Positions 23,517 to 39,886 of a stretch of DNA of 39,886 bases are shown in pieces. Position 1 is the first letter of the stretch, and every line of letters begins with the position of its first letter. Where the stretch lies: positions 1-39,886 of the forward strand of contig CAJFEW010000012.1 in the NCBI GenBank assembly GCA_904374805.1. The letters are read 5' to 3'. The position numbers and the translations under genes were made by a program. The notes under the pieces are model-generated. The model saw nothing but the letters and a program-made list of their open reading frames with translations, was not told where the DNA came from and ran no database searches. Source of the stretch: an uncultured Neglectibacter sp. (GTDB lineage Bacteria; Bacillota; Clostridia; Oscillospirales; Acutalibacteraceae).

Positions 23517-23532
23517 TATGCCCGCTGGGACT

Positions 23533-23698
23533 CCGGGTGCCCACGGATGGACTCCGTGGCCGAACACAGGAACAGGGGTGCAATTCCCCGGCGAACCCGT
23601 CGCCGTAATGGCAGAGGGGCGTTTCTTGCAGCCACTGGGCATGTGCCTGGGAAGGCGAAACGCACCGTTTGTATGCCTGAGCCGGAAGACTTGCCCGG
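23533..23698 (+). promoter_or_regulatory. Cobalamin (B12) riboswitch aptamer
   Basis: The order of conserved elements fits the cobalamin class. P1 is CCGGG (23533-23537) with CCCGG (23694-23698). A GGTGCC start is followed by a CACGGA/TCCGTG hairpin. Then come AACACAGGAA, GGGGTGCAATTCCCC and CCGTCGCCGTAA, then GCCACTGGGC with CTGGGAAGGCG. The B12 box variant is GAGCCGGAAGACTTGCC (about 23680-23696). Known members bind adenosyl- or aqua-/methylcobalamin and lower expression of uptake or synthesis genes. Here it controls a DUF4430 lipoprotein and an ECF S component. Confidence 0.93.
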
Positions 23699-23742
23699 AA
23701 TGGCCGTGCTGCCGCCACGGGTTCTTGGCGCGCCGCACAGGA

Positions 23743-23910: not shown

Positions 23911-24465
23911 ATGATGAAACGTACCAAACGTAAGGCAGGCCGTTGGGGAGCTCTGCTTTTGAGCTTGCTGCTGGTGGTCTCTGTGCTGGCTGGCTGCGGA
24001 GACAGCACCGGTTCCTCTACATCTTCCCAGGTGGAATCCTCTTCTGCGGTTTCGCAAACAGAAGAGAGCTCCGCTGTGGATTCCCAAAGCCAGGTGAGCT
24101 CCTCTGCAGAGGAGGAGAGCTCTGCTTTGAAGCCGGAGCCCCGGGAGGGCGAGGCCTCTCAGGAGGAGAGCCAGGTAAAGGAGATCACCTTGAAGGTGGT
24201 CCACGGGGACGGGTCTGAGAAGGAGTTCCCCCTTTCCACCACGGCAGAAACCCTGGGAGAAGCCCTGGAGGCGGAAGGTTTGATCGCCGGAGAAGAGAGC
24301 AGCTACGGGCTGTTCATCACCACGGTGGACGGTGAAACGGCCGACGACGCCAACCAGGAGTGGTGGTGCCTGACCAAGGGCGGTGAAGCGTGGAACTACG
24401 GCGCAGATTCCACCCAGATCAGCGACGGCGACACCTATGAGTTGACCTTGACGGTGGGTTACTGA
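23911..24465 (+). CDS. DUF4430-domain lipoprotein, candidate corrinoid-binding protein
   Basis: A 184-residue surface lipoprotein. The signal peptide has basic MMKRTKRKAGRW, a hydrophobic core and lipobox LAGC with Cys29. A Ser/Glu-rich linker of about 60 residues follows. The C-terminal DUF4430 domain (about 95-184) shows TLGEALEAEGLIAGEESSYG, then DDANQEWWCLTKGG and the closing DGDTYELTLTVGY. DUF4430 resembles the C-terminal domain of transcobalamin and intrinsic factor. ATG 23911 is chosen since TGAGGT lies nine bases upstream; an ATG at 23896 has no SD. B12 control and the neighbouring ECF gene point to capture of cobalamin or another corrinoid; that function is inference. Confidence 0.85.
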   Translation: MMKRTKRKAGRWGALLLSLLLVVSVLAGCGDSTGSSTSSQVESSSAVSQTEESSAVDSQSQVSSSAEEESSALKPEPREGEASQEESQVKEITLKVVHGDGSEKEFPLSTTAETLGEALEAEGLIAGEESSYGLFITTVDGETADDANQEWWCLTKGGEAWNYGADSTQISDGDTYELTLTVGY

Positions 24466-32323: not shown

Positions 32324-33985
32324 TTAGGCTTTCTGAAGAGCAGGTGTAAGCTCTGCAGACAGGTCTTGCCCGATGTTGAGAATGTGATCGCCAATGCGCT
32401 CGAAATCGGTGAGCATTTCCGAGTACAGGGTGCAGGCCTCGTCGGAACAAGCCCCTTCCCGCAGCCGCACCATCTGGTTGTGCCGGTACTCCAGTGTCAT
32501 GTCGTCTATTTTCTGCTCATAGCGATAGATGCTTTCCAGTGTTTCCGGGGAAAGGCTGCCCAGCTCGCCCAAAGTTTGCAGGGCTTCCAGGCTTGTTTGA
32601 CGCATGGCCTGAATTTCTTCCCGTGCCTGCTGGGAGAAGGCAATGTGCTTTTCCTCCAGCATTTTTGTGTATTCGCAGATATTCACCGCGTGATCGCCAA
32701 TACGCTCCAGGTTGCTGGAGATTTTAAAGAACCGGCTGATCTGCTCCGAATCTCGCTCATTGGTCTCAAAGACAATGATGTGGGAGATATAACTGGAGAT
32801 TTCCTTGTTTAGGTAGTCGATATACTCCTCTGTTTCCTCCACTTTCTCCAACCGGGCGGGGGTGCTGTCCAGCACCGCCTGGAAGCTTTCGTCCACGTTT
32901 TGCCGCACCATGCCGGCCATGCGGGCCAGCTCATGCTGGACGCCGTTGAGCACAATAGCGGAGGTGCCCACATGGTGTTCCGCGGAGAGCTGGTCCACCG
33001 GTTTGATGTAGAGCAGCCTGTGAACGCCAGCCTCTTCTGCCTCCGAAGTTTTCTCCGGAAGGATCTTGGTGGCCAGGCTGGCCAAATAGGAGCCAAAGGG
33101 CAGCAGAAGCAGCGTGGTGACCACATTGAACAAGGTGTGCATGTTGGCAATCTGCGCAGAGGGGTTGTCCGGCGTCCAGCCAGCCACCCAGCTAGTGAGA
33201 GGGGTGCACATGCAAACCACGGTAAACAAGGTGGTGCCGATGACATTAAACAGCAGGTGAATAATGGTGGTGCGCTTAGCGTTGCGGCTGGTGCCGATAG
33301 AAGCCAGCACAGCCGTAATGCAGGTGCCGATGTTTTGACCAAAGAGCACATACACGGCGCTGTCCAAACCGATCAGGCCGGACTTGGCCAGCGTTTGCAA
33401 AATGCCCACCGAAGCCGACGAGGACTGGATGACGGCTGTAAACACCGTGCCTGCCAAAATACCCAGCAGGGGATTGGAAAACTGGGTCATCAGCCCGATG
33501 AAAGCTTCCGACTCCCGCAGGGGCAGCATGGAATCGCTCATCATGTTCATGCCCAGGAACAAAATGCCCAGGCCTGCAACAATCTGTCCCCAATATCGGA
33601 CAGTGGGCTTTTTGATAAACACCACCAGCGCCACGCCGATAAAGGCCATCAGAGGGGCGATTTCCCCCACATCCAGGGCGATGAGCTGGCCTGTAATGGT
33701 GGTGCCAATGTTGGCGCCCATAATGATCCATACCGCCTGGCGAAGGGTCATCATGCCGGAGTTTACAAATCCTACCACCATCACGGTTGTGGCGGAGGAG
33801 GATTGGATCACCGCTGTGATGCCTGCGCCCACCAAGACGCCTAAAATCCGGTTGGAGGTGAGCTTCTCCAAAATTCGTTTCATGCGGTTTCCTGCGGCGG
33901 CTTCCAGACCGGAGCTCATCATCTGCATGCCATACAGAAAGAGCGCCAGGCCTCCCAAAAGCGCCAGCACGTTTGTCCATGTCAT
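32324..33985 (-). CDS. Na+/phosphate cotransporter with C-terminal PhoU domain
   Basis: A 553-residue membrane protein of the NptA/YjbB-type Na/Pi cotransporter family. Two inverted membrane repeats each carry the QSSSA motif (AVIQSSSATTVMVVGFVNSG at about residues 59-78, and AVIQSSSASVGIL at about 180-195), plus GANIGTT and GQNIGTC. A PhoU-like helical domain occupies about residues 340-545 (LERIGDHAVNICEYTKMLEE and DFERIGDHILNIGQDL). It moves phosphate with Na+, as importer or exporter. ATG 33985 follows GAGGAAGTGGGAAAAG. The 210-base leader holds a peptide ORF and a terminator, so expression seems to be attenuated. Confidence 0.93.
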   Translation of the reverse strand: MTWTNVLALLGGLALFLYGMQMMSSGLEAAAGNRMKRILEKLTSNRILGVLVGAGITAVIQSSSATTVMVVGFVNSGMMTLRQAVWIIMGANIGTTITGQLIALDVGEIAPLMAFIGVALVVFIKKPTVRYWGQIVAGLGILFLGMNMMSDSMLPLRESEAFIGLMTQFSNPLLGILAGTVFTAVIQSSSASVGILQTLAKSGLIGLDSAVYVLFGQNIGTCITAVLASIGTSRNAKRTTIIHLLFNVIGTTLFTVVCMCTPLTSWVAGWTPDNPSAQIANMHTLFNVVTTLLLLPFGSYLASLATKILPEKTSEAEEAGVHRLLYIKPVDQLSAEHHVGTSAIVLNGVQHELARMAGMVRQNVDESFQAVLDSTPARLEKVEETEEYIDYLNKEISSYISHIIVFETNERDSEQISRFFKISSNLERIGDHAVNICEYTKMLEEKHIAFSQQAREEIQAMRQTSLEALQTLGELGSLSPETLESIYRYEQKIDDMTLEYRHNQMVRLREGACSDEACTLYSEMLTDFERIGDHILNIGQDLSAELTPALQKA

Positions 33986-34046
33986 ACTTTTCCCACTTCC
34001 TCTTCTCTCATACTGTGTTCCTGACGCGCCCCCTGCGGCAAAAGGA

Positions 34047-34096
34047 AAAGCACGACCGGCACCTGCTGCATAGACAGCGGTGCTCAGCCGTGCTTT
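34047..34096 (-). terminator. Attenuator hairpin in the Na/Pi transporter leader
   Basis: On the minus strand AAAGCACGGC (34096-34087) pairs with GTCGTGCTTT (34056-34047, one wobble). It encloses CACC/GGTG and GCTG/CAGC, and TCCTTTTG follows. It sits about 60 bases upstream of the transporter ATG. Its 5' arm encodes the last codons of the leader peptide. Confidence 0.75.
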
Positions 34097-34161
34097 GTTT
34101 CATGCATGGTAAACCCAGTTCTTTTTCGTCTTCGAAAAACGACTGTTGATGTGTGGCTCAT
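34084..34161 (-). CDS. 25-residue leader peptide ORF upstream of the Na/Pi transporter
   Basis: ATG 34161 with AAGGGG seven bases upstream opens MSHTSTVVFRRRKRTGFTMH followed by ETKHG and a TGA at 34086-34084. The Arg-rich run is coded CGA-AGA-CGA-AAA-AGA, codons that look rare in this GC-rich genome. The same bases form a hairpin (CAGT...ACTG ends, TTTTCG/CGAAAA core, 34116-34145). The stop codon lies at the end of the 5' arm of the terminator. A ribosome at the stop would cover that arm and prevent termination, while its release or stalling would change the outcome. This is the layout of a translational attenuation leader; the signal sensed is unknown. Confidence 0.65.
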   Translation of the reverse strand: MSHTSTVVFRRRKRTGFTMHETKHG

Positions 34162-34202
34162 CAGGATTCCCCTTAATACTTGCCTTTTTTCACGATATAT
34201 TC

Positions 34203-34231
34203 ATTATAAAGGGGAAGCGGGAAAATCACAA
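34203..34231 (-). promoter_or_regulatory. Promoter of the Na/Pi transporter leader
   Basis: Minus strand TTGTGA (34231-34226), 17 bases, TATAAT (34208-34203). The predicted start near 34196 gives a leader of about 210 bases. From 34232 to 34326 I see only AT-rich sequence without a recognisable element. Confidence 0.8.
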
Positions 34232-34326
34232 GTTCTTTTCTTATACTTTACAAAGAATTAACACAGAGGATTTTACAGACCGATTTTTTGTACAATGACA
34301 CTCCTGGCGTCTTTTGCACCTGGTTA

Positions 34327-35265
34327 TCACCGGAAAGTTCCTGCGGCCAGCTTTTGAAATAAGTCGGCAAACAACGGGTCCCGATGAATCTCATAGGCGT
34401 AGCGGATGGGATGCCTGCCCGGATCGAAACTGTAATGGTGGTCGTACTGGAAAATGGGGCTGGGCGCCAAGCGGTCCTCCACAAAGGAAGGGCCTAACAG
34501 CCAGGCAACTGCGGTCACATCCCAAATAGGCCTGCTCCAGCAAGGCCCGGAACCAGCCGCCTTCTCCGAGTCTTCTACCAGAGAAACCAAGTAGTCGCAC
34601 AAAGCGTTCTTCCCGCCTAGATGAAGCCGAAGCTCCGGGCCGGTAGTGCGGAATTGCGAGACCACCCCCTGACAGGGAAGCTGCACCACGGCGCAGCCGC
34701 TGTCAAAAAGAACTCGATCCGCCGCCACATCCTGCCAAGCGTTGAATTCCTGGTTGTGGGGCCAGTGCCAGGCGTGTCCGCCCAGCCAGACCAGCACAAT
34801 CCTGTCTCGAATCTCCGGCTGAAGCAGCAGGGCAGAGGCCACGTTGGTCAGCGCCCCAATGGCCACCACATACAGGGGATGGTCAGGGGAATATTCCCTG
34901 GCAAGCTTTGCCAAATGCTCGGCTGCAGGCGAGAAAACCGGCGTCTCCTCATTGGGAAGATAGTTCTGGGAGCCCCGGAAAACCAGCTCGCTGGGAAACT
35001 TGCTGCCGGCCAAGTCCAAGAGCCGAAGAATTTCGGCATAGCTTTTTTCCATGCCGTCGGCAGGGCCGGTGGAATTCTCGTTGAAGAAGGGGGCAGCGTA
35101 CAGGGCCTTTAGGGAGAGCTGCTCCTGAGAAGCCAACAGATAGGACAGGGCGAACTGGTCGTCCACTTCGTTGTAGGTATCGGTGTCTAAAACCACGTCT
35201 ACCGGCCCGGTGGGGCGTTCCAGCCGGCGGAGCAGGCTGGGCAGATCGGGTGCGGTGTGCTGCAT
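34327..35265 (-). CDS. Nucleoside hydrolase (IUNH family)
   Basis: A 312-residue N-ribohydrolase that splits nucleosides into base and ribose. The Ca2+-binding Asp cluster is DTDTYNEVDDQFAL at residues 27-40, which is two residues longer than the classical DxDxxxDD. Other motifs are YVVAIGALTNVASALLLQPE (about 133-152) and WDVTAVAWLLGPSFVEDRL, with the second conserved Asp near 247. The subgroup is the less-studied one with a C-terminal FDPGRHPIRYAYEIHRDPLF extension. ATG 35265 follows AAGGAGG at eight bases. Substrate unknown; nearby genes of NAD and ADP-ribose metabolism make ribosides of that pathway possible. Confidence 0.88.
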   Translation of the reverse strand: MQHTAPDLPSLLRRLERPTGPVDVVLDTDTYNEVDDQFALSYLLASQEQLSLKALYAAPFFNENSTGPADGMEKSYAEILRLLDLAGSKFPSELVFRGSQNYLPNEETPVFSPAAEHLAKLAREYSPDHPLYVVAIGALTNVASALLLQPEIRDRIVLVWLGGHAWHWPHNQEFNAWQDVAADRVLFDSGCAVVQLPCQGVVSQFRTTGPELRLHLGGKNALCDYLVSLVEDSEKAAGSGPCWSRPIWDVTAVAWLLGPSFVEDRLAPSPIFQYDHHYSFDPGRHPIRYAYEIHRDPLFADLFQKLAAGTFR

Positions 35266-35472: not shown

Positions 35473-35529
35473 TAGTTTCTTTTCTGTAGGCTTAGTTACC
35501 AAAAAGCGTCTACTTTATAATAGAAACTA
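35473..35529 (+). promoter_or_regulatory. Promoter and candidate operator of the NAD(P)-binding protein gene
   Basis: TATAAT at 35516-35521; the -35 region holds TTAGTT at 35492 (spacer 18). TAGTTACC (35493-35500) sits on the -35 and is the same as the palindrome arm before the macrodomain gene. TAGTTTC (35473-35479) and GAAACTA (35523-35529) form a further inverted pair flanking the promoter. Confidence 0.5.
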
Positions 35530-35614
35530 AAGGAAGTATACTGCAGGCAAGAGCTGAGGAATACGGCCGGTCCAAAGCTTGCAGAATCTCATCGCGTTTA
35601 AGGAGGAACTCTTT

Positions 35615-36244
35615 ATGAAACTTGCAGTTGTGTGTGCCAATGGAAAAGCTGGGCAAAAAATTGTGAAGGAAGCTGTAGAACGAGGCCTGGACGTGACCGC
35701 TGTGGTGCGGGAGGAAAACCGCACTGTCGCTCAGAAGGTGCTGCAGAAGGACCTGTTCGATTTGACTCGGGACGATCTGTCCGGTTTCGATGTGGTCGTG
35801 GATGCCTTTGGGGCTTGGACCGAGGAGACCCTGCCTCAGCACAGCACTTCTCTCCAGCACCTGTGCGACATTCTCTCCGGCACGGACACCCGCCTGTTGG
35901 TGGTGGGCGGCGCCGGCAGCCTGTACACCAATCCGGAGCACACCGCCTGTGTGGCAGAAGGCCCCGGCTTCCCCGATACCTTCAAGCCCTTGGCAGCTGC
36001 CATGGCCAAGGCTCTCGGGGAGCTGCGTACTCGCACCGATGTGAAGTGGACCTACATCAGTCCTGCCGGTGATTTTCAGGCAGAGGGGGCGCGCACCGGA
36101 AAGTATATTTTGGGCGGGGAGGAACTGACCCTCAACGCCAAGGGGGAAAGCGTCATCAGCTACGCAGACTACGCCATTGCCATGGTGGACGAGGCCACCC
36201 AGGGCAACCACATCCAGCAGCGCATCAGCGTGGTGGAAGAGTAA
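35615..36244 (+). CDS. NAD(P)H-binding protein (atypical short-chain reductase, YwnB-like)
   Basis: A 209-residue Rossmann-fold protein of the NAD(P)-binding (PF13460-like) group. MKLAVVCANGKAGQKIVKEA gives the GxxGxxG-type nucleotide loop (here ANGKAGQ). VTAVVREENRT follows with the Arg that usually reads the NADP phosphate, then FDVVVDAFGAWTE, TRLLVVGGAGSLY and WTYISPAGDFQAEGARTG. Such genes often respond to quinone or electrophile stress under HxlR-type regulators, but no HxlR gene is in this window. ATG 35615 follows AAGGAGG at eight bases. It is a single gene with its own terminator. Confidence 0.87.
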   Translation: MKLAVVCANGKAGQKIVKEAVERGLDVTAVVREENRTVAQKVLQKDLFDLTRDDLSGFDVVVDAFGAWTEETLPQHSTSLQHLCDILSGTDTRLLVVGGAGSLYTNPEHTACVAEGPGFPDTFKPLAAAMAKALGELRTRTDVKWTYISPAGDFQAEGARTGKYILGGEELTLNAKGESVISYADYAIAMVDEATQGNHIQQRISVVEE

Positions 36245-38342: not shown

Positions 38343-39455
38343 TTACAGACGGGACCCGGCCAACTCTTCCGCAGCGTCGTCCAAGGCGGCCCGGATCACC
38401 TGGTCCATGTTGTAGTAGCGATACGCTCCCAGCCTGCCCCCAAAGCGCACGTTCCTCCGGGATCGGGCCAGTTCCTGATACGTTTGGTAAAGCGCCTGGT
38501 TTTTGGGATCGTTGACAGGGTAGTAGGGTTCTTGACCGGGAGTCCAGGAGGCGGGATATTCCCGGGTGATGACGGTGTGGGGCTGGGTACCGAACAGAAA
38601 GTGCTTGTGCTCTATGATCCGGGTATAGGGCACCTCCCGGGCTGTGTAGTTGATCACCGCGTTCCCCTGGAAGTTGGGGCAGTCCAGCACCTCTGTTTCA
38701 AAGCGCAGGGAGCGGTACTCCAAGGGCCCGAACCGGTAGTGGAAAAAGCCGTCGATGGTGCCGGTATACACGGTTTTCTCCGCGCAGGCGGGCTGGTTTT
38801 TCACAAAGCTTTCATAGTCGGTGGAAAGCAGCACCTGGCTGCCCTCCAGCAGTTTTTCCACCAGGGCGTCGTATCCCTCTTCTGGAATGCCCTGGTACCG
38901 GTCGGTAAAGTAGTTGTTGTCGAAGGTGAAGCGGAGAGGCACTCGCTGGATGATGAAGGTAGGCAGGTCTTTGCAGTCCCGGCCCCACTGCTTTTCCGTG
39001 TACCCCTTGATCAGCTTTTGATAGATGTCGTCCCCCACCAATTTCAAAGCCTGTTCCTCCAGGTTTGCAGGTTCCTGGATGTTGTGACGGGCGGCTTGCC
39101 GGCGGATTTCCTCTTGGGCCTGGGCAGGGGTGATCACGTCCCACAAGCGGGTAAAGGTATTCATGTTGAAGGGCAGGTTGTACAGCTTCCCTTGGAAATT
39201 GGCCAGAGGCGCGTTGACAAACTGGTTGAAGGAAGCGTAGCTTCGCACGTAGTCCCACACCTTTTGGTCGGAGGTGTGGAAAATGTGGGCCCCATACCGG
39301 TGCACCTGAATGCCCTCCACCGTTTCGCAATGGGCGTTGCCTCCCAGATGAGGCCGCCGGTCAATGACCAAACAGCGTTTTCCGGCAGCGGTCATTTGCT
39401 GCGCGAACACCGCGCCGTATAGGCCTGCGCCCACAATGAGATAGTCGAATTTCAT
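38343..39455 (-). CDS. glf: UDP-galactopyranose mutase
   Basis: A 370-residue flavoenzyme that interconverts UDP-galactopyranose and UDP-galactofuranose for cell-surface polysaccharides. It starts MKFDYLIVGAGLYGAVFAQQ (FAD dinucleotide fold GxGxxG), then GGNAHCETVEGIQVHRYGAH (about residues 38-57) and IFHTSDQKVWDYV. GYTEKQWGRDCKDLP (about 153-167), FDNNYFTDRYQGIPEEGYD and the C-terminal GRLGAYRYYNMDQVI with the conserved Arg and Tyr are typical. ATG 39455 has AAGGAAG eight bases upstream. Length is as expected. It lies right next to a 104-base tandem repeat array on its upstream side. Confidence 0.96.
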   Translation of the reverse strand: MKFDYLIVGAGLYGAVFAQQMTAAGKRCLVIDRRPHLGGNAHCETVEGIQVHRYGAHIFHTSDQKVWDYVRSYASFNQFVNAPLANFQGKLYNLPFNMNTFTRLWDVITPAQAQEEIRRQAARHNIQEPANLEEQALKLVGDDIYQKLIKGYTEKQWGRDCKDLPTFIIQRVPLRFTFDNNYFTDRYQGIPEEGYDALVEKLLEGSQVLLSTDYESFVKNQPACAEKTVYTGTIDGFFHYRFGPLEYRSLRFETEVLDCPNFQGNAVINYTAREVPYTRIIEHKHFLFGTQPHTVITREYPASWTPGQEPYYPVNDPKNQALYQTYQELARSRRNVRFGGRLGAYRYYNMDQVIRAALDDAAEELAGSRL

Positions 39456-39481
39456 GCAAAGCACTTCCTTGTTCGAAGTCC

Positions 39482-39886
39482 GGGCAATGAGTTGCCCTTT
39501 TTGTCCCAGGTTCCGCCGCCCATTCGGCGGCGTGCGCGTCCTGTCCTGCCGGGGCCACCCGGCACAGGACCGCCCGGCCGAAACGCGGGCAGCCAGCTGC
39601 CCTTTTTCCCCAGGTTCCGCCGCCCATTCGGCGGCGTGCGCGTCCTGTCCCGCCGGGGCCACCCGGCACATGACCGCCCGGCTGAAACGCGGGCAGCCAG
39701 CTGCCCTTTTGCCCCAGAGTCCGCTGCCTATTCGGCGGCGTGCGCGTCCTGTCCTGCCGGGGCCACCCGGCACAGGACCACCCGGCCGAAACGCGGGCAG
39801 CCAGCTGTCCATTTGCCCCAGGTTCCGCCGCCCATTCGGCGGCGTGCGCGTCCTGTCCCACCGGGGCCACCCGGCACAGGACCGCC
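39482..39886. repeat. 104-bp tandem repeats, about 3.9 copies, each with three hairpins
   Basis: Copies start at 39482, 39587, 39691 and 39795; the last runs off the window. Each unit has hairpin A (GGGCAGCCAGCTGCCC then T-run), hairpin B (CCGCCG/CGGCGG, loop CCCATT) and hairpin C (GTCCTG...CAGGAC around GCCGGG/CCCGGC). Arm changes are often compensated: copy 1 has GGGCAA/TTGCCC in place of GGGCAG/CTGCCC, and copy 4 has a T-G wobble in hairpin A. Long open frames across the array are not genes, since the 104-base period is not a multiple of three. I see no glf promoter in it. Confidence 0.85.

Follow-up and report, generated by a model that had tools for sequence, protein, structure and literature searches.

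A candidate translation-gated attenuator upstream of a Na/Pi-PhoU transporter gene and related leaders of ion transporter genes in Oscillospirales

In the pyrE and pyrBI attenuators of enteric bacteria, which control pyrimidine genes and respond to UTP by way of polymerase pausing, a reading frame ends at or traverses the terminator and the ribosome blocks the hairpin, with no antiterminator involved. The attenuation of pyrBI is discussed in the accessible part of PMC4824070, which also describes that in E. coli termination fell from about 90% to under 10% when the distance between a stop codon and the terminator downstream of it was shortened from 28 to 5 bp.

We analysed a window of 39,886 nucleotides (the whole stretch of DNA under study, contig CAJFEW010000012.1 of an uncultured Neglectibacter sp.), in which a Na/Pi cotransporter gene is preceded by a leader with a short open reading frame (uORF). 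As in pyrE and pyrBI, the frame ends at a terminator before the gene, an antiterminator was not detected and the ribosome is proposed to block the hairpin; unlike them, the window has a phosphate transporter gene with a Pho-box-like repeat, belongs to the Oscillospirales and has a dedicated short uORF. The MgtL/mgtA and mgtQ leaders, in the available parts of PMC11282234 and PMC8092293, carry acidic or proline uORFs, and acidic peptide starts such as that of MgtL are described there as destabilising ribosomes in low Mg2+. The sister leaders reported below are likewise acidic and serve cation transporter genes, whereas the window uORF is basic, not acidic, its predicted terminator is intrinsic rather than Rho-dependent, and completion of the uORF is proposed to turn the gene on, in the opposite direction to mgtL. 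The mgtCBR leader of Salmonella resembles the window leader in that the amino-acid sequence of mgtM is unconserved, ribosome-polymerase coupling has been proposed and an ion transporter operon is served, but mgtM and mgtP work with alternative stem-loops and proline codons, as far as the excerpts of PMC3641672 describe them, where the window leader has a single terminator. Similarly, vmlR-type antibiotic leaders of Bacillus combine a uORF and an intrinsic terminator in a Firmicute, but the antiterminator, anti-antiterminator and drug stalling described in the accessible text of PMC9226507 have no counterpart detected in the Na/Pi leaders.

The transporter itself has a described relative in NptA of S. 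aureus, a PhoU-domain Na/Pi symporter of the same domain make-up. Its gene depends on PhoPR, in agreement with the Pho-box-like repeat of the window, and the accessible part of PMC13170248 does not mention leader regulation of nptA, unlike what is proposed here. An earlier note on this DNA had stated that no such leader was known for a Na/Pi-PhoU transporter; we likewise found no report in the open-access literature, a body that leaves out most subscription papers.

The leader in the window

All leader elements are present in the window, on the minus strand and 5' of the Na/Pi-PhoU transporter gene (Table 1). The promoter, Shine-Dalgarno sequence, 25-codon frame, Arg/Lys run, stop in the 5' arm of the terminator and transporter from which the earlier note had built its proposal were all found. 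The product of 33985-32324 scored above the cut-offs of the NCBIfam models TIGR00704 and NF037997 (NaPi_cotrn_rel, Na_Pi_symport) and, having both Na_Pi_cotrans and PhoU domains, is of the NptA type. The promoter had been called strong; it matches 10 of 12 consensus positions, but the call is weak taken alone, since the region holds 2 promoter-like sites against 1.1 in shuffles. Further upstream, none of 100 shuffles reached the score of the Pho-box-like repeat, given a motif drawn up for this analysis from the usual form of Pho boxes and from these same sequences; PhoP or PhoB would be expected to bind there. Repeats of a similar kind precede many of the orthologous genes.

The predicted terminator is followed 3' by TCCTTTTGC. 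The 5' arm of the hairpin contains the UGA of the uORF, whose A is the one base that bulges from the stem. Folding of the leader gave a z of -2.86, with 1 of 200 shuffles equally stable. The same bases that encode the CGA-AGA-CGA-AAA-AGA run also form a small hairpin (34139-34122). The codons of this run had been described as rare, which holds for the arginine codons, CGA and AGA accounting for 34 (5.4%) and 38 (6.0%) of 634 Arg codons, and not for AAA, which makes up 46% of Lys codons; these counts come from 24 long ORFs chosen mechanically from the window, at least one of which (35510-36211) is probably spurious. A search of Rfam 15 gave no match above the gathering score at the window leader and no leader match in ten orthologue loci.

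Table 1 Predicted features of the leader and its transporter gene in the window
Feature	Position	Strand	Detail
Na/Pi cotransporter with PhoU domain, NptA type	32324..33985	-	PF02690, PF01895
Possible second uORF MQQVPVVLFLLPQGARQEHSMREEEVGKV	33982..34071	-	AUG in hairpin loop; read from sequence
Interrupted U-rich tail TCCUUUUGC	34038..34046	-	sequence
Terminator hairpin	34047..34096	-	-34.6 kcal/mol; folding
uORF, 25 codons + UGA, MSHTSTVVFRRRKRTGFTMHETKHG	34084..34161	-	ATG at 34161, UGA 34086-34084
CGA-AGA-CGA-AAA-AGA run, uORF codons 10-14	34120..34134	-	sequence
Shine-Dalgarno AAGGGGA of uORF	34168..34174	-	sequence
Promoter TTGTGA-17-TATAAT	34203..34231	-	10/12 matches
Pho-box-like direct repeat TGTTAATTCTTTGTAAAGT, predicted PhoP/PhoB site	34245..34263	-	14/16 consensus positions

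Two other readings of the region were considered and rejected. The possible second uORF has a UGA overlapping the AUG of the transporter, and relatives show AUG-ACC at the corresponding place in the terminator, but the relatives do not keep the frame, and L199, L187, L189 and L178 have lost the AUG; the second uORF of the window may have arisen by chance. The hairpin could also have been the terminator of the upstream gene, which in the window is a nucleoside hydrolase gene adjoining the transporter (34327-35265, minus strand); among the 33 leader loci described below, L001 and L039-L041 alone have such a gene close to the transporter, as judged on 0.9-5.9 kb of upstream sequence per locus.

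Elsewhere in the window, a cobalamin riboswitch was found at 23518-23712 on the plus strand (86.4 bits), and overlapping ORFs with repetitive translations rich in Arg, Pro and Ala at about 39430-39870 suggest a tandem DNA repeat. Outside it, at G000:C59:9512-10297, the phosphate-binding-protein family PF12849 was matched in two pieces on one strand in swapped order, possibly two genes or an odd arrangement.

Layout and variation among orthologues

Orthologous transporters were gathered from the genus, from named genomes (best 80 of 428), from the family and the order, and from two further groups. From 134 distinct loci, 33 leaders were chosen automatically and by eye, an incomplete set beyond which at least five further Na/Pi leaders exist (L212, L215, L220, L221 and L225, found by the covariance model R1 described below). 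Three close orthologues (L039-L041, 81% identity) have a promoter, a uORF and a hairpin whose sequence is almost the same. In Massiliimalia massiliensis, Pseudoflavonifractor, Intestinimonas, Eubacterium callanderi and one further genus, unlike uORFs stop at the hairpin base, and in Neglectibacter timonensis (L044) and Anaerotruncus massiliensis (L073) the uORF passes through the terminator to the gene start.

We scored the layout as a uORF with Shine-Dalgarno sequence and ATG that ends at most 15 nt from the hairpin base, and took dinucleotide shuffles of the 110 nt preceding the hairpin as the comparison. Where the automatic search had missed a hairpin base or put it in the wrong place, we set it by hand, in both leader sets. 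The adjacency of uORF stop and hairpin across the relatives is beyond chance, with criteria fixed after the first examples had been seen and with relatives that are not independent. In the first set the layout was present in 13 of 21 leaders against 1.2 expected, and in 6 of 10 against 0.6 (P 1.6e-6) when one leader per lineage was kept. Other terminators, used as a control, gave 1 of 16 against 0.9 expected. The enlarged set gave 22 of 33 against 2.0 from shuffles, or 20 of 33 when the ambiguous L173 and L178, counted through an overlapping ATG, were left aside. Among the five Na/Pi leaders met only through R1, four (L212, L215, L221 and L225) fitted, their uORFs ending 0 to +7 nt from the core of the hairpin, and L220 did not. 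In the enlarged set, 10 of 44 alternative frames that share a start with the uORFs likewise ended within 15 nt.

The starts of the 20 unambiguous uORFs lie 54-72 nt upstream of the hairpin and their ends fall at -6 to +13 nt relative to its base, so that a terminating ribosome would sit on the base of the stem. The stop has moved in concert in L039, where the UAG comes two codons earlier in the same frame. Predicted translated frames that end at the terminator (20/33) or traverse it (L044 and L073) are the arrangement of the pyrE and pyrBI attenuators. This preservation of the stop-in-terminator layout, far above chance, supports the proposal of the earlier note that a ribosome-linked transcription attenuator precedes the Na/Pi-PhoU transporter gene; the layout and hairpin are what the relatives keep, while the peptide and its Arg/Lys run are not.

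The peptides of the uORFs are unlike between genera and drift within them, with pN/pS of 0.45-1.48 in nine usable pairs (eleven were computed; L187/L189, with a single synonymous change, and L156/L173, in different frames, were dropped). Among 22 leaders there was no conserved regulatory run of codons for one amino acid, as in trp- or his-type leaders, and the drifting peptides hold no conserved motif of the drug-arrest kind. A run of at least four Arg/Lys is absent from the other 21 uORFs of the enlarged set and was seen in the window only.

The leader is also dispensable, as indicated by six leaders that keep the terminator and have no recognised uORF (L048, L049, L057, L059, L157 and L171) and by most of the orthologues examined, for example in Blautia and Flavonifractor, which have neither uORF nor terminator. 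In one of the six, L171 (G682), no uORF precedes the hairpin, and an SD-like GAGAGG precedes an ATG inside it, where initiation could itself block the terminator. Leader types are scattered over several clades of the transporter tree, a quick tree with 32 of 93 inner branches open, which suggests that loss, gain or transfer has been frequent. In a scan of 95 loci, Pho-box-like repeats (at most 1/100 shuffles) were 227-294 nt upstream of the gene where a leader is present (11 loci) and 104-190 nt upstream where it is absent, except in the leaderless L062 at 263; the leader thus lies downstream of a predicted promoter of a common kind and ahead of the gene.

In 20 of the 33 leader hairpins the terminator stem has a single A.C mismatch, 5-10 bp from its base, and the unpaired A is part of the stop codon in 12 of the 20 unambiguous uORF leaders. 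The uORF-less terminators L048, L057, L157 and L171 also keep the mismatch, which makes it doubtful that it is a mere by-product of the stop codon.

Acidic leaders of cation transporter genes

The covariance model R1 was built from the hairpins of 14 relatives that share a core with A opposite C. Covariation was evident in these hairpins, 12 of 20 pairs changing on both sides and 90.9% of cells being paired against at most 60.6% when slid. A search with R1 of 64 genomes from a single genus and of 245 from the order gave, beyond Na/Pi leaders, matches upstream of genes for P-type cation ATPases and CNNM proteins and of one gene for an AI-2E permease. Twelve R1 loci were examined, among them five or six P-type ATPase leaders, two CNNM leaders, one AI-2E leader and one Na/Pi leader, and two unrelated terminators (L238, at the end of another gene, and L241, with no leader). 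The downstream genes of these sister leaders were assigned with Pfam for three loci and by similar sequences for the rest.

The sister uORFs begin with MDDADSSDADR, MDGSDSNAADR, MDDGDSNAPAK, MDNADSSDADE or MDTADSSNTAR. A pattern for such acidic starts gave 20 matches in 19 of 394 genomes, and the reversed pattern none; 17 of the 20 were leaders, which belong to P-type ATPase genes in 10 cases and to CNNM genes in 7, and the other 3 (L252, L261 and L263) lay in coding DNA. Together with L223, acidic uORFs (MDDADSSDADRS, MDGSDSNAADRS, MDDGDSNAPAK) followed by a terminator were present in L253-L260, L262 and L264-L271 of the Oscillospirales, before P-type cation ATPase, CNNM and AI-2E genes. Among these 18 sister leaders (17 and L223), 11 have the stop at -2 to +19 nt relative to the hairpin base and 7 have it deeper. 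Rfam 15 had no match, with E up to 0.5, in the eight sister loci searched, and we found no report of such a leader for CNNM genes of Firmicutes in open-access papers, a scope that most subscription papers fall outside. In L262, one of the 10 P-type ATPase leaders, the acidic leader is kept before a seemingly truncated P-type ATPase gene whose front part is apparently missing.

The genome of the window has a leader of this kind as well. At L272 (G000:C9, gene match at 24436), which was found through its CNNM gene and not through the acidic-start pattern, an acidic uORF (MDDGDSHPASANFPQ..., peptide beginning MDDGDSHPAS...) starts about 205 nt before the CNNM gene, and its frame reads through an R1-type hairpin. 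The score of this hairpin, 28.9 bits, is significant only in a small search of 48,766 bases (E 1.4e-4), and the hairpin was not among the matches of the genome-wide R1 search at E 0.001. Of five cation genes examined in this genome (two CNNM, three cation ATPases), this CNNM gene was the one with an acidic leader and R1-type hairpin.

R1 did not match the window's own hairpin, its best match in the window being 11.9 bits on the other strand, nor did it match the hairpins of L039-L041; it did match the Na/Pi hairpin of L044, from the genus of the window (27.6 bits, E 7e-4). A link between the window leader and the sister leaders is suggested by their shared layout together with the L044 match. 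An acidic or proline-rich N-terminus, as in MgtL-type leaders, was found in the CNNM and P-type ATPase sister leaders and not in the window uORF.

How the leader may work

The leader of the window is probably a translation-gated transcription attenuator. The RNA would begin at the Pho-box promoter, and a ribosome at the last uORF codons or at the stop, as RNA polymerase passes the terminator, would cover the base of the 5' arm, so that the hairpin could not close and the polymerase would continue into the Na/Pi transporter gene. If the uORF were untranslated or aborted early, or if the ribosome had already gone, the terminator would close and transcription would end. In the Na/Pi branch the peptide itself would be irrelevant, what counts being whether and when the ribosome completes the frame; phosphate transport would then be conditional on working translation or on a slow polymerase, for example one slowed by low NTP enough for the ribosome to catch up. 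The uORFs of L044 and L073, which read through the terminator, fit the same completion logic. Promoter use, termination, occlusion, direction and signal are all steps that we infer from sequence.

The ribosome footprint extends 12-15 nt from the P site, according to the excerpts of PMC3641672. In B. subtilis, as the accessible part of PMC9226507 describes, the polymerase outruns the ribosome, which would make occlusion harder. A trp-like switch is not supported, since the 5' arm pairs upstream no more than expected: in 0 of 15 leaders did this pairing exceed 95 of 100 shuffles, and in the window leader, where it was highest against shuffles, it reached 0.53 against 0.30, with 12 of 100 shuffles as high. 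The unconserved peptide, the run seen in the window only and the lack of a detectable antiterminator favour a pyrE/pyrBI-like device over sensing of amino acids or rare codons.

Among the alternatives, the one that survives best is a Mg2+-sensing uORF acting through intrinsic ribosome destabilisation, in which ribosomes would fall off in low Mg2+, the terminator would close and phosphate transport would be off, while Mg2+-replete cells would complete the uORF and express the gene. It would account for the conserved acidic leaders of CNNM and P-type ATPase genes to which R1, built from Na/Pi hairpins, leads, and of which the window's own genome has one before a CNNM gene; in addition, some Na/Pi uORFs begin with MDDA, MDNA, MADA or MLDDA, and high Mg2+ induces CorC/MgpA of Salmonella, as described in the available part of PMC12421838. 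We nevertheless regard it as unlikely for the window, where residues 1-20 of the uORF peptide include neither Asp nor Glu; the other Na/Pi uORFs are just mildly acidic, and R1 passes over the hairpins of the window and L039-L041.

A fixed premature terminator, accompanied by an incidental uORF and with no role beyond lowering expression or releasing a short RNA, would agree with the six leaders that have a terminator and no recognised uORF and with the absence of a leader from most orthologues; the recurrence of the uORF stop next to the hairpin in independent lineages, far above shuffles, makes this quite improbable. Antibiotic-induced arrest of the ribosome on the uORF could free transcription, as for ABC-F and erm genes, and the broad layout is shared with the vmlR-type leaders in the accessible text of PMC9226507, but the unconserved peptide allows no common arrest motif, no antiterminator was found and the gene encodes a phosphate transporter, so that we hold this reading to be very unlikely. 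Classical attenuation by Arg/Lys supply or rare codons, which the earlier note had suggested and which the rarity of all four Arg codons of the run would fit, was rejected as highly improbable, because the run is not conserved, the peptides drift, no antiterminator was detected and stalling at codons 10-14 would keep the ribosome about 11-14 nt away from the hairpin, so that the terminator could still form and the signal could only lower expression.

Taken with the sister leaders, the translation-gated attenuator proposed for the window may belong to a wider family in the Oscillospirales, in which completion of a uORF gates ion and phosphate transport by reading Mg2+ or ribosome fitness, an idea that we put forward tentatively, as a possibility with the odds against it. 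Its members would have a Shine-Dalgarno sequence, a uORF of 15-30 codons and a terminator whose 5' arm often carries the stop at the A.C mismatch; the peptide start would be of the MDDADSSDAD type on CNNM and P-type cation ATPase genes and variable on Na/Pi-PhoU genes. A completed uORF would open the gene, and low Mg2+ or failing ribosomes would close it. If completion opens the terminator, high Mg2+ would switch on Mg2+ efflux through the acidic leaders, the reverse of the mgtL response.

Should the attenuator work in this way, control of phosphate transport would read translation itself, beneath the Pho promoter, and there would be evidence that ribosomes keep close to RNA polymerase on some leaders of Clostridia, a group in which coupling has been questioned. 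In the sister acidic leaders one would have magnesium switches with a logic opposite to that of mgtL, and a connection of phosphate transport with Mg2+ and the stability of ribosomes that can be put to the test. If the wider family is real, Mg2+ efflux would be on only with ample Mg2+ and the fitness of ribosomes would be what permits phosphate transport, which would link the economies of Pi and Mg2+ in a phylum whose transcription and translation are thought to be uncoupled.
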